Part shown: piece by piece, positions 1-13,403 of the stretch | How the letters are laid out: every line of letters begins with the position of its first letter | Position numbering within the stretch: position 1 is the stretch's first letter | DNA from: an uncultured Oscillospiraceae bacterium | Lineage (GTDB): Bacteria; Bacillota; Clostridia; Oscillospirales; Oscillospiraceae | DNA length: 13,863 nt | Assembly (NCBI GenBank): GCA_934569045.1 | Contig: CAKTJX010000042.1 | Location: forward strand, 1 to 13,863 | Direction of reading: 5' to 3' | Position numbers and translations under genes: made by a program | Notes under the pieces: model-generated | Database searches by the model: none | Told to the model about the DNA's origin: nothing | What the model saw: only the letters and a program-made list of their open reading frames with translations

Positions 1-3000
1 GGAACTGCGTTCCACTTCACCGTCACGCCGTTGGAAGCGTTCTCCAGGGTGCTGACGGCGGGCTGGGAAAGATAGGTGATGCTCTTGCCCGCGGTGTCGT
101 AGGCGCTGGTATAGCTCTTGCCGTCAGCGCTGACGCAGCGGACGGTAAAGGTGTACCGGGTGCCGCTCTGCAGACCGGTAACGGTGTGGCTGGTACCCGT
201 GGTATCCCCCGCGCCCTTCCAGGAGGTGCCGGCGGTCTTATAGTACACACGGTACCGAGCAGCGCCGGGAACCGCGTTCCATCTGACAGTTACGCCGGTG
301 CCAACGTTTTCCAGGGAAGAGATGACGGGCGTTTCCAGGATGGTCAGCTTCGGCAGGGTCTCCGCCTCCACGGTGGTCTCCTGCTGGCCCTGGGCATCCT
401 TATAGACCTTCCCGCAGCGGGAGCAGGTATAATAAGCGTTGTTGCCCGGCTTTTCCAGGGTGGGGGCCACCGCCTCCGTTTTCACCATATCGTGCCCCAG
501 GGCGGGGATCTTCTGCTGAGGAGTCAGCACCTCATTGCAGACAGAGCAATGCTTGCCCTCCGTCAGGCCGGATTCGGTGCAGGTGGGCTCCACGCGCTCA
601 TCCGTTACCTCCGTGTGGCCATTGGCAGGGATCTCCTGCTGGGCAACCAGGACCTCGTTGCAGACGGAGCATTGCGTACCCTCTGTCAGACCGGGCTCCG
701 TGCAGGTCGCCGCCTTGCCGGGGACTGCTTCAGGCTTGTGGCCCGTGGCAGGAATCACCTGCTGGGCTACCAGAATCTCGTAGCAGATGGCACAGTGCAA
801 TCCCTCTGTCAGACCGGGCTCCGTGCAGGTGGGTTCAATACGTTCACCAGGGACTCCCGCATGACCTGTGGATGGGATCTCCTGCTGGGCTACCAGAATT
901 GCATTGCAGACGGAGCAGTGCGTACCCTCTGTCAAGCCTGGTTTCGTGCAAGTGGGCTCCACAGGATCATCCATTACTTCCGTATGGCCCTTGGCGGGGA
1001 TTTCCTCCTGGGCAATCAAGACCTCGTTGCAGACGGAGCAGTGCGTACCCTCTGTCAGGCCCGGTTCCGTGCAGGTGGGCTCCACACGGGCATCGATCAC
1101 TTCTGTGTGACCTGTGGCGGGGATTTCCTGCTGGGCTACCAGGACTTCGTTGCAGACGGAGCAGTGCTTACCCTCTGTCAGGCCGGTCTCCGTGCAGGTG
1201 GGGTCCACATGAGCGTCGACCACTTCCACATGGCCCTTGGCGGGGATTTCCTCCTGGGCAATCAAGACTTCGTCGCAGACAGAGCAGTGCTTACCCTTTG
1301 TCAGGCCGGACTCCGTGCAGGTGGGCTCTACACGGGCATCGATCACCTCCGTGTGACCTGTGGCAGGGACTTCCTTCTGCGCGACCAGAGTTTCATTGCA
1401 GACAGAACAGTGCTTTCCCTCTGTCAAGCCGGGCTCTGTGCAGGTGGGTTCCACGCGGGCATCGATCACCTCCGTGTGACCTGTGGCTGGTATTTTTTTC
1501 TGGGCTACCAGGACTTCATCGCAAACGGAGCAGTGCTTTCCCTCTGTCAGGCCAGATTCCGTACAAGTAGGTTCTACACGGGCATCGATCACTTCCGTGT
1601 GGCTGGGCGGAGTAACCTCGTCCTCTACGGTAGTCTCCTGCATGGCATCGGGATCCTTGAAGACCTGCTGACACACATCACAGATGTAGTAGGCGTTGCT
1701 GCCTGCCTGTGTGCAGGTTGCGGGCACCTGGGGGACATAGGTCAGTATGTGCATGTGGGTTGCGTTATAATGCATCTGCACTCTTTTCACGACATCACTT
1801 TCACTCTCCGAAACCTGAATTTTCTGCCAATCCGCCTCTGTACCGCCATAATAGATATTTCTCAATGCGCTACAGTTCAAAAATACGTTGTCTCCAATAC
1901 TTGTCAGGCCCTTGGGAATCACAATCGTTGTCAGATTCACGCAGTCGGAGAAAGTAGCGTACTCAATGCTCGGCACCCTTTCCGGGATAGTAATGTTTGT
2001 CAGACTGCTACAGCTGGCAAAAGCAGCGTAACCAATACGCGTCAGGCTCTTAGGAAGCACAATCGTAGTCAGGCTGCTGCATTCCTCAAAAGCTTCCTCG
2101 TCAATACTCGTCACGCTCTCCGGAATCGTAACATTGGTTAGACTGCTGCAGTTCCTAAAAGCACTGTGGCCAATGCTCGTGACGCTCTCCGGAATTACAA
2201 TACTGGTCAGACTGCTACAGCTGCAAAAAGCGAAATCGCCAATACACGTCACGCTCTCCGGAATCACAATACTGGTCAGGCTGCTACAGCCGAGAAAAGT
2301 GAACTCGGCAATATTCATCACACTCTCCGGAATTCTTACACTCGTCAGGCTATCGCAGTTGTAAAAGGCACTGGTGCCAATGCTCGTCACGCTCTCCGGA
2401 ATCGTCACGCTGGTAAGACTGATACAGTCCGTAAATAGGCTAAATGCAATTTCCGTCACCCCTTCGGGGATCGTCACGCTGGTCAAACCGCGGCAATTAG
2501 CAAACGCTCTACTGCCAATGGTTATTACCCCGTCCGGAATCGTTACATTCGTCAAGCTACTGCAACCCTCAAAAGCAGACGCGCCAATGCTCGTTATTCC
2601 CTCCGGAATCGTCACGCTCTCCAACTTGCTGCAACCAGCAAATACGCTGTATTCAATACTCGTTAAGCCCTCCGGAATCGTTATACCGGTCAGACTGCTG
2701 CAACCAGAAAAGGCGCTACTGCCGATGCTCGTTACATTCTCCGGAATCACCACGCTGGTCAGGCTGCTGCAGCCAGAAAAGGCAGACGGCCCAATCTTCG
2801 TGACATCCTCCGGAATCGTCACACTGGCCAAGCTGCTGCAATTTTCAAAGGCACTGTAACCAATGCTCGTCACGCTCTCCGGAATCGTTACACTGGTCAA
2901 ACTTCCACAGTCTTCAAAAATATTATCCTCAATGCTCGTTATGCCATCCGGGATCGTTACACTCGTCAGGCTGCTGCATTTTTCAAAGGCTCTATAACCA

Positions 3001-5351
3001 ATGCTCGTCACGCTCTCCGGAATCGTTACACTCGTCAGACTGCTACAGTTGTTAAAGGTGTCCATTTCGATACTTGCTACGCCCTGGGGAATCTCAATTT
3101 CCTTCAGCTTGGTGCAGTCTTTAAAGGTGTAAGCACCAAGCGTTTTCAATCCCTCCGGCAGTTCTACAGAGACAACTTTCAGGCAGCCGTAAAACGCATA
3201 GTCCCCAATGCCCGTCACATCGGACTCCACGACCACAGAAGTAAACTTGGATCTGTACCGATACCAGGGGGCCGTCGAATTTTCAGAGTAGTCGGGCATA
3301 TCGCCGTTGCCGGACAGAAGCAGGACTCCCTCCATCGTCACGACCCAGGTGAGCCGGTTATTTTCTCCGTACCTGCCGCAGGCGATGCTGGGCAGCTTTT
3401 CCAGCTGTTCGGCCTCCACGGTGGTCTCCTGGGTTCCTTCCGCATCCTTGAAGACCTTGCCGCAGCGGTCACAGGTATAGTATTCGTTGTTGCCGGGATC
3501 AAAATAGGTGGGCTCCACGGCCTCGGTTTTCGTCATCTGGTGGCCAAGGGCGACGACGATCTGCTGCTCTTTCAGCGTTTCGCCGCAGACAGAGCACTTC
3601 TTACCCTCCGTCAGACCGGATTCCGTGCAGGTCGCGGCAACCGCGTCCATGATCACCACTGTATGCCCCAAGGCCGAACGCACAACGGACGCTTCGTCAA
3701 TTTCATTTCTGCCGTCGGCATCCGAATAGCACTTGCCGCACTCCGCGCAGCGCCAGTAGGCAATATTTCCGTCTTCCGTGCAGGTTGGGGCTTTCTCCGC
3801 CACTTTTTCCGGCGCGCAAACATGGGGCTCAGCATAGTGCATGTTGGCAGCGAGAAGCGCCGCGTTATCCGTGCCAATTGTTATTTTGTCCCAGTCCGAC
3901 TGGGTGCCGCCGTAATACACATCCGTCAGGCCCGCGCCGCCAAAAGCCGAACCTTCAATGGTCGTAACGGAGGCCGGAATGGTAACCTCCGTCAGACCGG
4001 AGCAATCAAAGAACAGGTGTCCCGGAAGATTAGTCACTTCCCCCGGAATGACAACAGACTCCAGCCCGGAACCCGCAAAGGCATATTCCTTTAACCCGTA
4101 TCCGATCAGGGTCGATGGGAGCTGAATGCTTTTCAGCGCGGTGCAGCCCTCAAACGCATGGTCACCAACCGTATACAGCCCCTCCGGCAGGGAAACATCC
4201 GTCAGATTGACGCAGTTCGTGAACAGATAAGAGGCAGACAGACGGACGATTCCCGCGCCAACAACAACCTTTTTGATCTGGCTGCTGAAGCCGCTCCAAT
4301 AAGACCGGCCGTTGAAATACTTGTAAAAGGACACGTCACCGGAGCCATAGAGATAGAACGTGCCATCCCCATCCAGTACATAACAGACATTTGTACCATT
4401 CTCTTTAAAATTGCTGCAATAACCGCAGGTAATGATCGTACCGTCCGTACAGATCGCGCCGGGGGCGGTAAACACAGTTTCCGTGTAACTGAAATTGATT
4501 TGCAGCCACTGTGCCCTTGTTCCGGCATAGTACAAAGTAAGAGGACCTGCCGCGGACTCCAGGCCAGCCGCCTCTACCCACGTCACACTGGCAGGGATGT
4601 AAATTTCTACGTCGCCGAAGCCGGAGAATGCATCCTTAGCGACGGAGGTAATGCCCTCTTCTATAACGATCTTCGTAATCTGATCCGTATAAGCTGCCCA
4701 AGGGAAATCGGACGCACCGGATTCCGGGCCGCTCATAAGCCCCGTGCCTGAAATCGTCAGGACACCCGCACTGTCTACTTTCCAGGTAATATTCGACCAA
4801 AGCGTGCCAGACGCGATCTGACCCTCAGATTCCTCCAAAAGAAGAGCGATATCATTCTCTGACCAATCTGCTTCCAGGGTGATCTCTACCGTAGGTATTT
4901 CATCCGCCTCCGTCAGGGAGAAGTAGCCGTTTTCGGGCGCATACCCTCCCGCCTCCGCGAGGTAGGCATAATTCCCCGGCTGAAGCAGATAAGTACCGTC
5001 CTCCTCCGGTTTGATGGCCTGGTCAATGTCCCCTTCCGCGGGGTAGACCACCAGGGTCAGGTTCTCCGGGGTGCAGGCAAAGCGCACCCGGACGGGCTGG
5101 GGGTCGGCATCCGCCTCGGTGGGGTCGGTGGTCTCCGTGGCCTCGGCGGCCTCCGCTGCCTCGGTGGCTTCGGTTACCTCGACAGCTTCCGTGGGCTCCG
5201 CCGCCTCGGCGGCTTCGGTTTCTTCGGCTGCTTTCACAGTCTGGGCAGCCTCTGTGGGCTCCGCCGTGTCGGAAACAGTCTCCGCCCACGCGGGCGTAAA
5301 GGTCTGGGCTGTCAGCAGAACAGCCAGGAACAGCGCGAACAGCTTTCTCAT
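1..5351 (-). CDS. Giant BspA-like leucine-rich-repeat surface protein with Cys-repeat stalk and FN3 domains (C-terminus beyond the window)
   Basis: I read the frame codon by codon from the ATG at 5351 to the left edge and found no stop, giving at least 1783 residues. AAGGAG (5364-5359) lies 7 nt before the start. Residues 1-23 form a signal peptide ending PAWA. Residues 24-85 are a Thr/Glu/Ala linker, and 87-160 a small beta-rich region resembling PEGA-type domains (weak). About 161-505 is a first LRR_5/BspA-type block, 510-650 Cys-pair modules, and 653-1191 a second LRR block with nineteen 23-residue repeats. Residues 1251-1619 are nine 41-residue Cys/His repeats. From about 1675 there is one FN3-like domain and the start of a second. 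Such proteins are secreted and usually cell-attached, and some family members bind host proteins or other bacteria. The ligand here is unknown. Any wall anchor would lie beyond base 1. The gene is monocistronic with its own promoter. Confidence 0.93.
495..1601 (-). repeat. Nine tandem 123-bp units encoding 41-residue Cys/His repeats
   Basis: Units run from the His codon at 1601 down to 495, exactly 9 x 123 bp. Each unit has His1, Cys13, Cys24 and Cys27, with the core TCTExGLTEGxHCSVC and a linker close to [14 protein letters not shown]. The four conserved positions are invariant in all nine units (spacing H-x11-C-x10-C-x2-C). Units 1-3 are nearly identical at the DNA level, so recent duplication or gene conversion is likely. 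The repeats probably form a stalk between the LRR head and the FN3 region. Zinc binding or disulfide formation is inferred only. Confidence 0.93.
1893..3203 (-). repeat. Nineteen tandem 69-bp units encoding 23-residue BspA-type LRRs
   Basis: The first unit begins at the Asp codon ending at 3203. Unit 20, which is degenerate and runs into YYGGT, begins at 1892. That is exactly 19 x 69 bp with no insertion or deletion. The consensus is [23 protein letters not shown]: a Cys at position 7, a Leu at 10, and the Ile-Pro pair at 15-16. This is the LRR_5 pattern, which forms a right-handed solenoid. Units 1-2 and 17-20 are the most divergent and look like caps. Confidence 0.93.
3860..4700 (-). repeat. 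First, irregular leucine-rich block of the surface protein
   Basis: This covers roughly residues 218-498. Recognisable pieces are [18 protein letters not shown], then [32 protein letters not shown], and [20 protein letters not shown]. It ends in a [12 protein letters not shown] segment that also closes the second LRR block ([12 protein letters not shown]). The units are LRR_5-like but more divergent and irregular than the 23-residue array, consistent with an older copy of the same module. Confidence 0.7.
5100..5282 (-). repeat. Low-complexity Thr/Glu/Ala-rich linker
   Basis: Residues 24-84 are built almost only from Glu, Ala and Thr, with Pro and Val ([16 protein letters not shown] motifs). 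They follow the signal peptide directly. The composition suggests an extended, acidic spacer at the mature N-terminus. The DNA is a degenerate GCC/TCG/GCG repeat that could vary in length. Confidence 0.75.
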
Positions 5352-5390
5352 AATTCTTCTCCTTCGCACAAATGGTTCAATATATGTGTA

Positions 5391-5419
5391 ATTATATAGT
5401 AGAAAACGGAAAATAACAA
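5391..5419 (-). promoter_or_regulatory. Sigma-A promoter of the surface-protein gene
   Basis: On the minus strand, TTGTTA (5419-5414) and a perfect TATAAT (5396-5391) are separated by exactly 17 nt in AT-rich DNA. Predicted transcription start is near 5384, giving a leader of about 33 nt before the ATG at 5351. It lies just downstream of the terminator of the preceding operon. Confidence 0.8.
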
Positions 5420-5467
5420 TATGCAGGCTGCATAGTAATGAAAATAAAGTTTGTGTAAAATGCGCGT

Positions 5468-5506
5468 AAAAATCCACAGCCAGATATCGCACCTGGCTGC
5501 GGATTT
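5468..5506 (-). terminator. Rho-independent terminator of the isc operon
   Basis: A 14-bp stem (5493-5506 with 5470-5483, one G-U pair in the minus-strand RNA) closes a 9-nt loop. It is followed on the minus strand by a run of T (5472-5468). It starts 8 bases beyond the Rrf2 stop codon. Confidence 0.85.
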
Positions 5507-10378: not shown

Positions 10379-10407
10379 TTGCTTTTTTTCCCAGGGTGTG
10401 CTATAGT
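10379..10407 (+). promoter_or_regulatory. Sigma-A promoter (extended -10) of the lipoprotein gene
   Basis: TTGCTT (10379-10384), a 17-nt spacer and TATAGT (10402-10407), with TG one base upstream of the -10 (10399-10400). Predicted start is near 10414. It lies right after the trxB-like gene, where no clear terminator is seen. Confidence 0.75.
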
Positions 10408-10440
10408 GAATACATTATGTTTACTGGAGGCCACGACCCC

Positions 10441-11940
10441 ATGGGCTTGCGCAAATTTACCCTGATTCTGGCGTTACTTCTGCTTCTGCTGACCGGCTGC
10501 GGCAGGCAGGAATCCGCTGTGGAGACAACCGAAGCACCGCCGGAAACCACGAATCCCGCCTATCTCGCCACAGAGCTGCAAATGATTGTCACCTACGAGA
10601 ATGTGGGCGAGCTGGAAAACTACAAGAATCTGACCCTGCTGGATGCCACCGGCTCCACCGCCTACCCGGCGCTGGAGGTATACGCCCGGAACCATCCCAA
10701 TGTGAACGTGATCTACACCGTGTCCCTTGGTAAAAAAGAGGTGGCCCACGGCATGGAGGAGATCACCCTCACCGCTGACGAAACGGACTACGACGCGCTG
10801 CTGGCGAACCTCACCTATCTGAAGGATACCAAAGCTCTGAAGCTGCCCAAAACCTCCCTGACCGCGGAAGAGCTCCACGTTCTGGCGGAGACCTACCCCG
10901 ACCTGGAAATCACCTACACCCTGGGACTGGCGGGGCAGGAATTCACGGAGGACACTACCAGCCTGGATCTGTCCGCCCTCACCTCCGGCCAGGTCACCGC
11001 CGCCTCTGAAACCCTGGCCCGGCTGCCGAACCTGGAAACTGTAGAGCTCATGACCGCCGGGGGCACCAGCGCATTGAGCCAGCAGGATGTGGAGGTTCTG
11101 GTGAACGCCGCACCCAACACCAAATTTCACTATACCTTCACGCTCTTCGGCAAGGAGATTTCCACTGACGATGCCCAAGTGGAATTCAAGAATCTGAAAC
11201 TCACGGAGACGGATATCCCCGCCCTGCGGCAGGCTCTGGCCATCATGACCGGCTGCAAGGCCTTCATTCTGGAGAACTGCGGGCTGGACAACGAGACCAT
11301 GGCCGCCATCCGGGCTGACTACCCCAACACAGAGCTGGTGTGGAAGATTCAGTTCGGCAAGTACAGCGCCATGACCAACGCGGAAACCATCCGGGCGGTG
11401 TACAACGTCTTTGACGACACCTGCGAAAACCTGAAATACTGCTGGCGGGTCAAATACATGGACATCGGCCACAACGAGACCCTGACAGACCTGAGCTTTG
11501 TGGGCTATATGCCGGATCTGGAAATCCTCATTGCCTCCGGCTGCGCGGTGAAGCAGCTGGACGGGTTTGAGAACTGCAAAAAGCTGGAATTTCTGGAGCT
11601 GGCCTACTGCTACAAGCTGGAATCCATTGAGCCCCTGGCTGGCTGCGAAAACCTTAAGAATCTGAACATCTGCTATTCCAAGGTCTCGGACCTGAAGGCC
11701 CTGGACGGGCTGCCCCTGGAGCAGTTCATGTGCAAGCAGACCCGGGTTCCCGCGGCGGAGCAGAAAATCTTTAAGGAAATCCACCCCGACTGCGTGACGA
11801 ATTTCTACGGCAAGGAGCCCTACGCCGGCGCGGGCTGGCGCTACAAGGACAACGGCAAGACCTATACGGAAATCTATAAAAAGGTCCGGGAGGTCTTCGG
11901 TTACGATGACATGCCCATGCCGACGGTAGCGAAGAAGTAA
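10441..11940 (+). CDS. Lipoprotein with about 70-residue repeats and a C-terminal leucine-rich region
   Basis: I do not recognise a named gene. The 499-residue product starts with a lipoprotein signal: hydrophobic residues 6-17 and lipobox LLTGC with Cys20 as the lipidated residue. A Thr/Glu/Pro linker follows (24-40). Residues 85-310 contain four copies of a motif like YPDLEITYTLGLAGQEF, at 85-101, 152-168, 224-240 and 294-310. Each lies in an alpha/beta-looking unit of about 70 residues. Residues 337-435 are leucine-rich (LTDLSFVGYMPDLEILIASG, KKLEFLELAYCYKLESIEPL). The C-terminus is short and polar. GGAGG (10426-10430) lies 10 nt before the ATG; the upstream in-frame extension lacks a signal and is rejected. 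It is probably displayed on the outer membrane face. Function unknown. Confidence 0.88.
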   Translation: MGLRKFTLILALLLLLLTGCGRQESAVETTEAPPETTNPAYLATELQMIVTYENVGELENYKNLTLLDATGSTAYPALEVYARNHPNVNVIYTVSLGKKEVAHGMEEITLTADETDYDALLANLTYLKDTKALKLPKTSLTAEELHVLAETYPDLEITYTLGLAGQEFTEDTTSLDLSALTSGQVTAASETLARLPNLETVELMTAGGTSALSQQDVEVLVNAAPNTKFHYTFTLFGKEISTDDAQVEFKNLKLTETDIPALRQALAIMTGCKAFILENCGLDNETMAAIRADYPNTELVWKIQFGKYSAMTNAETIRAVYNVFDDTCENLKYCWRVKYMDIGHNETLTDLSFVGYMPDLEILIASGCAVKQLDGFENCKKLEFLELAYCYKLESIEPLAGCENLKNLNICYSKVSDLKALDGLPLEQFMCKQTRVPAAEQKIFKEIHPDCVTNFYGKEPYAGAGWRYKDNGKTYTEIYKKVREVFGYDDMPMPTVAKK

Positions 11941-11944
11941 AAAC

Positions 11945-11984
11945 AGTGCGTGTCGCAGAAAGCAAAACTGCAACACGCACTTTT
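11945..11984 (+). terminator. Rho-independent terminator of the lipoprotein gene
   Basis: AGTGCGTGT (11945-11953) pairs with ACACGCACT (11973-11981), then after one mismatch GCAG with CTGC, around a loop AAAGCAAAA. TTTT follows at 11981-11984. It begins 4 bp after the stop codon. Confidence 0.8.
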
Positions 11985-11989
11985 CAATT

Positions 11990-12092
11990 TGTCCCGAAGG
12001 GACACCGTATCCACCCGAACGGGTGATTTCGTCCGGTCAAAGACCGGATTTCACCTGTCGAAGGACAGATTTCATCCAGCCAAAGGCTGGAT
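11990..12092. repeat. Array of five tandem short hairpins with variable stems
   Basis: The five stems are TGTCCC/GGGACA (11990-12004), CACCCG/CGGGTG (12012-12025), TCCGGTC/GACCGGA (12032-12048), CTGTC/GACAG (12055-12068) and ATCCAGCC/GGCTGGAT (12074-12092). Loops are GAA, AA, AAA, GAAG and AAA. ATTTC follows hairpins 2-5. The unit is 21-22 bp. Stem sequence differs in every unit but always pairs perfectly, so the shape, not the sequence, is conserved. The array fills the space between the lipoprotein terminator and a final large hairpin, between convergent genes. Confidence 0.85.
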
Positions 12093-12098
12093 TTCGCC

Positions 12099-12129
12099 GG
12101 AGCTGCCGCATTTTGCGGCAGCTCCTTTT
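12099..12129 (+). terminator. 12-bp terminator hairpin closing the array (also at the 3' end of obgE)
   Basis: GGAGCTGCCGCA (12099-12110) pairs perfectly with TGCGGCAGCTCC (12114-12125) around TTT, and TTTT follows on the plus strand (12126-12129). On the minus strand the same hairpin directly follows the obgE stop codon but has no U-tract. It probably ends plus-strand read-through and may also serve obgE. Confidence 0.7.
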
Positions 12130-13403
12130 CAGCGCATATACTCAAATTGCAGGTCGTAGATATCCACGGTGTCGCCGTCCTGGATGCCCATTTCCTCCAG
12201 GCGGGCAAAAAGTCCGCACTTGCGGAGCATCTGGTCAAAGTAATTCCGGGACTCGTAGTCATCGAAATTGATGTTCTGTACCAGCCGCTCCAGCCAGGTG
12301 CCGGTGACCATCCAGGTAGAACCCAGATGCTCGATGGTGAGTTCCTGAGGATCTCCGGCCTCCGGCTGCCGCTCCACGTACTCCGGCTCATAGATGGTGA
12401 CCGGGGGTAGGGTCCGCAGCTTTTCCGCAACTACCCGCATCAGCTGGCGGGTGCCCTGGGTAGTGCCGGCGGAAATCTCATAGAGCTCGCACCCGGCGGC
12501 CTCCACGCAGGCCCGGAGCCGCTGGAGATTGTCCGAGTCCGGGGGGAGCAGATCGATCTTGTTGGCGGCCACAATCATGGGCCGATTGGAGAGGTCTACG
12601 CTGTAGTTCGCCAACTCGTCACAGATGGCGTGAAAGTCCTCCACAGGATCCCGGCCCTCGCTGCCGGAAACGTCCACCACATGGACAAGCAGACGGCAGC
12701 GGTCAATATGCCGCAGGAAATCGTGGCCCAGGCCCGCGCCCTCCGCGGCACCCTCGATGATGCCGGGGATATCCGCCATAACAAAGGACACGCCCTCATC
12801 CACATAGATCACGCCCAGGTTGGGAAACAGGGTGGTGAAATGGTAATTGGCGATCTTGGGCCGGGCATTGGAGGTGACGGACAGCAGCGTAGACTTGCCC
12901 ACATTGGGGAAGCCCACCAGGCCCACATCCGCCAGGAGCTTCAGCTCCAGAATCACGTCCCGCTCCTGGCCCTTGAGCCCCACCTTGGCGAACCGGGGCA
13001 CCTGCCGGGTGGCGGTGGCGTAATGGGCATTGCCCCAGCCGCCCCGGCCGCCCTTGGCGATGACAAAATCCTCGCCGGTGGACATATCCACGATGATCTG
13101 ATTGGTCTCCGCATCCCGGACCACGGTGCCCCGGGGCACCTCAATGATCAGGGGCTCTCCCCGCTTGCCGCTCATGTTGCGGCCCAGGCCGTTGGCCCCC
13201 GCCTGGGCGGCGTACTTGCGCTTATAGCGGAAATCCAGCAGGGTGGACAGATTGTCGTTGACCCGCAGAATCACGCTGCCGCCATGGCCGCCGTCGCCGC
13301 CATCGGGTCCGCCGGAGGCCACATATTTCTCCCGGTGGAAGGCCACGGCGCCATCGCCGCCCCGTCCGCCGCAGACTGTAATCCGAACCTTATCTACAAA
13401 CAT
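12129..13403 (-). CDS. obgE: Obg-family GTPase
   Basis: The 424-residue essential GTPase acts in 50S ribosome maturation and stress responses, and in sporulation control in Bacillus. It has the Gly-rich Obg domain (1-157; CGGRGGDGAVAFHREKYVA, GGPDGGDGGHGG). The G domain has G1 GFPNVGKST (164-172), TTLFPNLG in switch I, G3 DIPG (211-214), G4 NKID (281-284) and G5 near EISAGT. The C-terminal OCT domain ends EMGIQDGDTVDIYDLQFEY, normal for Gram-positive Obg. GGAGGT (13414-13409) is 5 nt before the ATG. It follows rpmA in the common order, but a terminator and a structured leader lie between. It converges with the lipoprotein gene. Confidence 0.97.
   Translation of the reverse strand: MFVDKVRITVCGGRGGDGAVAFHREKYVASGGPDGGDGGHGGSVILRVNDNLSTLLDFRYKRKYAAQAGANGLGRNMSGKRGEPLIIEVPRGTVVRDAETNQIIVDMSTGEDFVIAKGGRGGWGNAHYATATRQVPRFAKVGLKGQERDVILELKLLADVGLVGFPNVGKSTLLSVTSNARPKIANYHFTTLFPNLGVIYVDEGVSFVMADIPGIIEGAAEGAGLGHDFLRHIDRCRLLVHVVDVSGSEGRDPVEDFHAICDELANYSVDLSNRPMIVAANKIDLLPPDSDNLQRLRACVEAAGCELYEISAGTTQGTRQLMRVVAEKLRTLPPVTIYEPEYVERQPEAGDPQELTIEHLGSTWMVTGTWLERLVQNINFDDYESRNYFDQMLRKCGLFARLEEMGIQDGDTVDIYDLQFEYMR

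Follow-up and report, generated by a model that had tools for sequence, protein, structure and literature searches.

The hairpin array between obg and a leucine-rich-repeat (LRR) gene of an uncultured Oscillospiraceae bacterium is a true member of the known family Gut-1. This family is dispersed in multiple copies among related genomes, its copies lie at the 3' ends of genes, and pairing in their stems is kept while the sequence changes. We put the probability at roughly 0.6 that the array is a gene-end copy of a dispersed, structured and probably non-autonomous family of mobile elements, which also acts as a two-way transcript end. We infer that the cassettes have moved. The window, the whole stretch of DNA that was analysed, comprises 13,863 nt, and all coordinates below refer to it unless another locus is named.

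Architecture of the cassette

Through comparison with copies in four further genomes (G142, G208, G193 and G243), the intergenic gap was resolved into a single cassette of seven hairpins, H0 to H6 (Table 1). The near-constant part of the window array is confined to linkers of 5-6 bases. The GTCCC/GGGAC stem of H5 recurs in G142 and G208 cassettes. A hairpin-chain parser that admits only Watson-Crick pairs read H0 to H5 as one chain of six hairpins with a score of 80, the next best chain in the window reaching 29. The maximum score was 26 in 1000 dinucleotide-preserving shuffles of the array region and 28 in 20 shuffles of the whole window; without H0 the array scored 53, with 1000 shuffles giving at most 22.

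Table 1. Features of the cassette and the genes on either side of it, in window coordinates
Feature	Positions	Strand	Remarks
Leucine-rich-repeat protein gene	10396..11940	plus	PF12799 LRR_4; convergent to obg
Whole cassette	11941..12128	minus	fills the 188-bp gap between the genes with H0, four units of linker and mini-hairpin, H5 and H6
H6 large hairpin	11945..11981	.	inverted repeat; 14-pair stem, one non-Watson-Crick pair
H5 TGTCCC(TTC)GGGACA	11990..12004	minus	preceded by GATACGG (12005-12011)
H4 CACCC(GTTC)GGGTG	12012..12025	minus	first five bases only within Gut-1 match
Linker CGAAAT before H4	12026-12031	minus	
H3 CCGGTC(TTT)GACCGG	12033..12047	minus	inside Gut-1 match
Linker TGAAAT before H3	12048-12053	minus	
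H2 CTGTC(CTTC)GACAG	12055..12068	minus	inside Gut-1 match
Linker TGAAAT before H2	12069-12074	minus	
H1 CCAGCC(TTT)GGCTGG	12076..12090	minus	extendable to 12074-12092; inside Gut-1 match
Linker CGAAAT before H1	12091-12096	minus	
H0 large hairpin	12099..12125	minus	inverted repeat; 12-bp stem, loop of 3, 100% complementary
obg/cgtA GTPase gene	12129..13403	minus	NF008955 GTPase ObgE, 555.8 bits

The initial annotation had described five mini-hairpins and a large hairpin at 11990-12125, at intervals of about 21-22 bp and separated by an ATTTC-type spacer, which reads GAAAT on the minus strand; the parser recovered all six hairpins. Its second stem, given as CACCCG, is corrected to CACCC with a GAAC loop, because the longer stem would leave a loop of two bases. 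Its bounds and orientation also had to be revised, as it had missed both the Gut-1 identity of the array, with minus as the Gut-1 strand, and H6, which belongs to the same cassette.

Both flanking genes end directly at the cassette: only 3 nt separate the obg stop codon from H0, which is read on the obg strand, and the LRR stop codon (11938-11940) abuts H6. H6 is flanked by T-runs, at 11939-11943 on the minus strand (overlapping the LRR stop codon) and as TTTT at 11981-11984 on the plus strand. It carries the stem and T-run of an intrinsic terminator and, judging from these features, is terminator-like in both directions and a candidate terminator. On the plus strand H0 is followed by TTTT (12126-12129), which makes it terminator-like for the LRR-gene transcript. 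Bidirectional intrinsic terminators similarly place a stem and T-run between convergent genes, as H6 does here and H0 does on the other strand, but the cassette differs from them in the five additional mini-hairpins with conserved linkers in between. Elsewhere in the window, positions 3-5492 of the minus strand encode at least 1830 aa of a BspA-type leucine-rich-repeat protein whose gene runs off the window, and a 123-bp tandem repeat with 9 copies (501-1601) lies within the frame of this gene.

Membership in Gut-1

The Rfam model of Gut-1 (RF01706) matches 12099-12021 on the minus strand at 55.8 bits, against a gathering cut-off of 50, and covers model positions 1-77 of 77. It is the only Rfam match above cut-off in the window, others near the array falling below theirs. 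The Gut-1 alignment and the hairpin chain both show a run of three hairpins connected through (U)GAAAU linkers on one strand, so that the window shares with the Gut-1 RNA its three hairpins and UGAAAU-type linkers. The window differs in extent: the Rfam model is a small RNA of three hairpins, whereas here the array forms a cassette at a gene end, with five small hairpins and two large ones, and belongs to a family dispersed across the sampled genomes of the family and class. Elsewhere Gut-1 also occurs in a bipartite form linked to IVP genes (see below). A second model, R1, was built from 18 cassettes, including that of the window; its window match is therefore not independent, whereas the Rfam match is.

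Pairing is kept while sequence changes

Maintained pairing with changing sequence is shown in the mini-hairpin stems. Across the 23 pairs of H1-H4 in 18 aligned cassettes, 97.6% of 413 cells hold a standard pair, compared with a shuffled mean of 69.9% and with 34-45% when the pairing partner is slid by 1-3 columns. Changes on both sides occur in 21 of the 23 pairs, with 108 compensated cells, 3 one-sided changes and 10 unpaired cells. Compensatory variation under a constant architecture, as the initial annotation had proposed, is supported. None of 500 shuffles was as high on four of five covariation measures, and 2 of 500 were on the fifth; related sequences may beat such shuffles without structure, while the slid-partner control preserves relatedness. 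These counts cover 18 of 23 cassettes selected by regular expression, the alignment omitting L183, L187, L188, L189 and L191; H5 was excluded since its register varies from group to group.

Placement at gene ends and a possible role of the transcript

Position was counted over 79 distinct arrays with a chain score of at least 40, drawn mostly from the lists of Gut-1 matches, so the counts describe the stronger arrays. On the Gut-1 strand the 5' neighbour could be called for 74 of them and is codirectional in 64 (15 of these neighbours being tRNA genes) and opposite in 10. The codirectional arrays lie a median of 39 nt from the gene end, 54 of the 64 within 100 nt. Where both neighbours were called (61 arrays), 29 pairs are convergent, 32 point in the same direction and none is divergent; among 284 background pairs with gaps of 100-500 nt, all from 80 obg-centred loci and not a random genome sample, 36 are convergent, 168 same-direction and 80 divergent. 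The element thus keeps to the ends of genes and stays out of upstream regions that two genes share, and the enrichment between convergent genes that the initial annotation had suggested checking is found. A length-based gene caller was discarded for this purpose as noisy; a codon-usage caller gave 56 of 73 arrays as codirectional and 4 as seemingly divergent, figures that became 64 of 74 and none once tRNA genes were added.

At some loci a hairpin or linker overlaps the neighbouring gene. In L116 (1477-1502) the left arm of the border hairpin holds the stop codon of the neighbouring gene (237-1484), and in L109 (about 1451-1502) the border hairpin takes in the last bases of a tRNA-Ala gene. 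A hairpin upstream of the IVP gene of L234, an IVP locus without an array, likewise includes a stop codon. Where a border hairpin includes the end of the neighbouring gene, the other arm repeats host sequence in inverted form, which may be left over from fold-back copying during insertion. Furthermore, the upstream gene of L190 (128-1006) stops at the TGA of the first TGAAAT linker (1004-1006), so that the element appears to supply its stop codon.

This placement would also fit a transcript-end structure selected for its function as RNA, whose copies would be domesticated parts of genes, with hairpins that protect the obg mRNA from exonucleases at its 3' end or block transcription from the opposite gene. 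Roles in mRNA 3'-end protection and against convergent transcription had been put forward in the initial annotation, and the sense-strand position behind stop codons would fit them. The same reading draws on the T-runs of H6, on the excess of convergent sites and on the predicted RNA energy of the window cassette (-102.7 kcal/mol). The scarcity of G-U pairs counts against it, because selection at the RNA level on that strand should favour G-U. Among 541 mini-hairpins, read by TGAAAT-type linkers and with the two halves of bipartite elements read on opposite strands, G-U accounts for 15 and A-C for 26 of 3014 cells (G-U 0.5%); hairpins with fewer than 4 Watson-Crick pairs had been removed beforehand, which inflates absolute pairing. 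tRNA stems at array loci contain G-U in 124 of 1513 cells (8.2%), and terminators behind genes at 80 obg loci of related genomes, in a similar count allowing at most two non-Watson-Crick pairs, contain 26 G-U and 13 A-C in 1599 cells (G-U 1.6%).

Set against the terminators' 1.6%, the G-U argument loses some of its initial force, with only the ratio of G-U to A-C remaining. This ratio of 15:26 in the arrays against 26:13 in terminators (Fisher p 0.008; small numbers) indicates that the arrays lack the G-U preference expected from selection on one RNA strand alone, and the gene-end subset by itself, although small, gives 4 G-U and 7 A-C in 751 cells. On these small numbers, the deficit favours constraint at the DNA level or on the two strands alike, or else a process in which one arm is copied from its partner. 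We regard selection for an RNA function at transcript ends as unlikely, though as the strongest of the competing explanations.

Occurrence and dispersal in relatives

Relatives were reached through an obg search of named loci, which places the window near Pseudoflavonifractor sp. MSJ-30 and Faecousia-type Oscillospiraceae. Gut-1 matches occur in 5 of 18 genomes chosen from the obg list (3 above cut-off). In the family of genome G004, 54 of 300 genomes have them, 37 above cut-off; for its class the figures are 49 of 291 and 33. Up to 15 copies were counted in a family genome, which is also the largest number of candidates scored per genome in the family and class samples, so that copy numbers there are lower bounds. 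Among 14 control genomes, one (E. coli) had a match, which was below cut-off. With the 18-cassette model, 19 of the 40 G004 relatives searched had matches; one genome contained 49, and 26 were counted in the genome with the closest obg DNA among 30 compared (84%). The impression, recorded in the initial annotation, of similar arrays in related gut Clostridia is borne out by the family and class samples; with arrays present in relatives and pairing above shuffles, the result is the opposite of what it had named as grounds for giving up the idea.

Conservation does not extend to the gap between obg and the LRR gene: 28 of 30 relatives match part of window 10396-13403, but none of these matches covers the array. 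The nearest named relative, Pseudoflavonifractor sp. MSJ-30 (G001, Obg 97%), has no Gut-1 match. Other large hairpins follow obg in that genome (L001, 7272-7600). In G208 a cassette also lies behind obg, but in reversed orientation (L189), and looks like an independent occupation of the obg-adjacent gap. At L144 of G142, a cassette of 187 bp has 6 further copies in the same genome (142-187 bp aligned, 81-95% identity). The gene before it (226-963) has counterparts in G201 and G051 at 67-69% identity, where the next gene follows about 30 nt on and the array is absent; a third matching locus, in G250, is also without an array, its gene layout being ambiguous.

Several further repeat arrangements were noted. 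L144 contains a second repeat of about 145 bp (8-152), with several G142 copies at 81-87% identity. Ten G142 stretches matching either the L144 cassette or this other repeat were kept outside all counts; an array is present in 2 and absent from 8, the eight having been fetched for the 145-bp repeat. Two cassettes stand head to tail, with starts about 100-215 bp apart, in L117, L170 and L177 (G193) and in L100 (G142), as if one had inserted behind the other or been duplicated. In G079, arrays form inverted back-to-back pairs with large hairpins at the outer ends (L159, L160, L163, L165, L166 and L167). L305 (2860-3034) holds a different tandem hairpin array, in which palindromes CTTTGAAACCG...CGGTTTCAAAG alternate with CAAAGC...GCTTTG.

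Two forms of the element

The gene-end cassette, H0-H1-H2-H3-H4-H5 and often H6, is found in G142, G208, G193, G243 and the window. In the 23 cassettes compared, a hairpin of at least 7 bp occupies the H0 place in 21 and the H6 place in 18, with a T-run at H6 in 12, the window among them; within the group formed by G142, G208 and the window, H6 with a T-run is present in 12 of 15 cassettes. A TTGCA core is common to H0 and H6 in many of them.

Other genomes, and some loci of the cassette genomes, carry a bipartite form, with TGAnnn linkers in the left half and nnnTCA linkers in the right. Linker types include TGAAAT/ATTTCA, TGATAT/ATATCA, TGAAGT/ACTTCA, TGAAGC/GCTTCA, TGATGT/ACATCA and TGAATT/AATTCA. 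In 57 of 66 distinct elements, selected by a linker-run filter in which complementarity was not a criterion, the left and right types are reverse-complementary (5000 reshufflings: mean 22, maximum 34), and therefore the two halves change together. The minimum-energy fold of a whole bipartite element (L086) has a long closing stem and local hairpins but no clean ladder of linker pairs; because the computed fold shows no simple ladder, cross-pairing of the linkers is read from covariation only.

Association with IVP genes and with Y1 transposases

Of seven open frames scanned beside arrays, four match PF05635 (23S_rRNA_IVP), the rest being TIR_2, Exo_endo_phos and a frame with no match. PF05635 was found in 19 of 23 Gut-1 genomes tested, 4 having no IVP match, and was absent among the 10 window proteins scanned. 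Among the 300 family genomes, 36 have both Gut-1 and IVP, 18 Gut-1 only, 37 IVP only and 209 neither (totals: IVP 73, Gut-1 54), an odds ratio of 11.3 with kinship ignored.

Conversely, 20 IVP loci were chosen from 46 IVP matches for having no listed Gut-1 match adjoining. A hairpin array lies within 420 nt upstream in 10 of these and downstream in 2, compared with 36 of 1946 background windows; the hairpin-chain test found no upstream array at the other 10. A strict two-half test was positive upstream at 3 of 20 and downstream at 0 of 20, against 0 of 3892 background windows, and one locus (L242) is positive in this test and negative in the looser chain test. Six further IVP loci, picked for a nearby Gut-1 match, were read and excluded from the count of 20. 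The order is frequently tRNA gene, terminator hairpin, left half, right half and IVP gene, with a protein gene in place of the tRNA at several loci. In G142, the stems of the IVP-linked array (L253) differ from those of the gene-end cassettes. Three array-less IVP genes (L244, L248 and L249) are preceded by inverted short repeats of type GAATAATGAATAGTGAAT, resembling linkers without hairpins.

S23/IVP genes are known from intervening sequences of 23S rRNA, that of Coxiella being described as a selfish element within a helix of 23S rRNA (PMC4990558), and the family is said to resemble Avd, a protein of diversity-generating retroelements (PMC10053308). Rather like the Coxiella intervening sequence, the arrays are structured inserts in or next to structured-RNA genes, and a PF05635 gene adjoins many fuller relatives of the array. 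They differ in lying behind tRNA and protein genes and not inside 23S rRNA; that of the window sits between obg and the LRR gene, with no IVP gene among the window proteins scanned. The bipartite form linked to IVP genes could be Gut-1 in its complete version, and IVP proteins might drive its spread.

A different agent would be a Y1 transposase of the RAYT or IS200 type, moving a REP-like element through single-stranded hairpins. Like REP/BIME sequences with their RAYT transposases (PMC6006769), the arrays are dispersed intergenic hairpins often close to gene ends, and Y1 is present in 33 of the 54 Gut-1 genomes and in 92 of the 246 without Gut-1. However, 21 Gut-1 genomes have no Y1 match (as do 154 of the others), and the odds ratio of 2.6 is weaker than that of IVP. 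The arrays have many short variable hairpins per copy with near-constant linkers and lack a constant palindrome, the stems differing between hairpins and between copies. A further REP feature described in PMC6006769 is a GT[AG]G foot. Movement by a Y1 transposase is improbable. Identification as REP/BIME was rejected on the missing palindrome, and as a CRISPR array for want of a constant direct repeat with variable spacers; the initial annotation had set both aside, having seen no constant repeat.

The small-RNA reading of Gut-1

The paper that described Gut-1 (Weinberg et al. 2010, PMC2864571) is certain that it is an RNA, judges a cis-regulatory role unlikely, gives its source in a table as human gut only, and groups it with non-coding RNAs most likely unaffiliated with mRNAs. 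A literature search, with subscription papers and bioRxiv preprints mostly outside its scope, returned this describing paper only; by term search, 'Gut-1' is absent from the main text of a 2021 paper that surveyed human microbiomes for candidate structured RNAs (PMC8040213). Rfam types the family as 'Gene; sRNA'. These classifications speak for a stand-alone small non-coding RNA acting in trans, yet position and sequence variation speak against it: the 3 nt between the obg stop codon and H0 leave no room for a promoter, the 64 of 74 arrays that follow a gene codirectionally stay mostly within 100 nt of its end, and stems vary between copies and linkers between elements. A trans-acting small RNA is improbable. 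Chance pairing or simple low-complexity sequence can practically be discarded, being refuted by the shuffle tests, the above-cut-off Gut-1 match and the slid-partner control.

A proposed mechanism and its meaning

For the mobile-element reading, three steps can be outlined. First, the obg message would pass H0 and H1-H5 and end at H6, and the convergent message would end at H6 or H0; the cassette would then be a harmless two-way transcript end, a tolerated niche that explains why copies accumulate there. From the sequence features available, we hold this to be about an even bet. Second, the copies would probably stem from transposition or copying that recognises folded hairpins and not sequence. 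Third, and more tentatively, the fuller bipartite version upstream of the 23S_rRNA_IVP gene could be the autonomous or helper form. The initial annotation had imagined a mobile hairpin cassette growing by templated inversion. Dispersal and the IVP-linked form support the mobile part, whereas growth by templated inversion is not demonstrated; the scarce G-U pairs and the few cases in which H0 reaches into a neighbouring gene are only compatible with it.

Taken jointly, these elements allow a more speculative picture, which we consider rather doubtful as a whole. Instead of a small RNA, Gut-1 might be the folded body of a mobile element that belongs to a new class, with the four-helix-bundle IVP/S23 protein as its sole gene where one is present. 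It would be recognised by shape, through linkers that pair across the two halves (reverse-complementary in 57 of 66 elements) with mini-hairpins branching off on both sides, while sequence drifts or one arm is copied from the other. Such elements would settle downstream of tRNA genes and protein genes, with the window cassette as a short derivative that lacks a gene.

Gut-1 has been an orphan candidate RNA since 2010. As a multi-copy, shape-conserved element at gene ends, it shifts the question from which target it regulates to which agent copies it. The IVP link offers a candidate job for S23/IVP proteins outside rRNA. Moreover, kept structure combined with changing sequence and few G-U intermediates makes the family a testable case of hairpin evolution at the DNA level or by templated copying.
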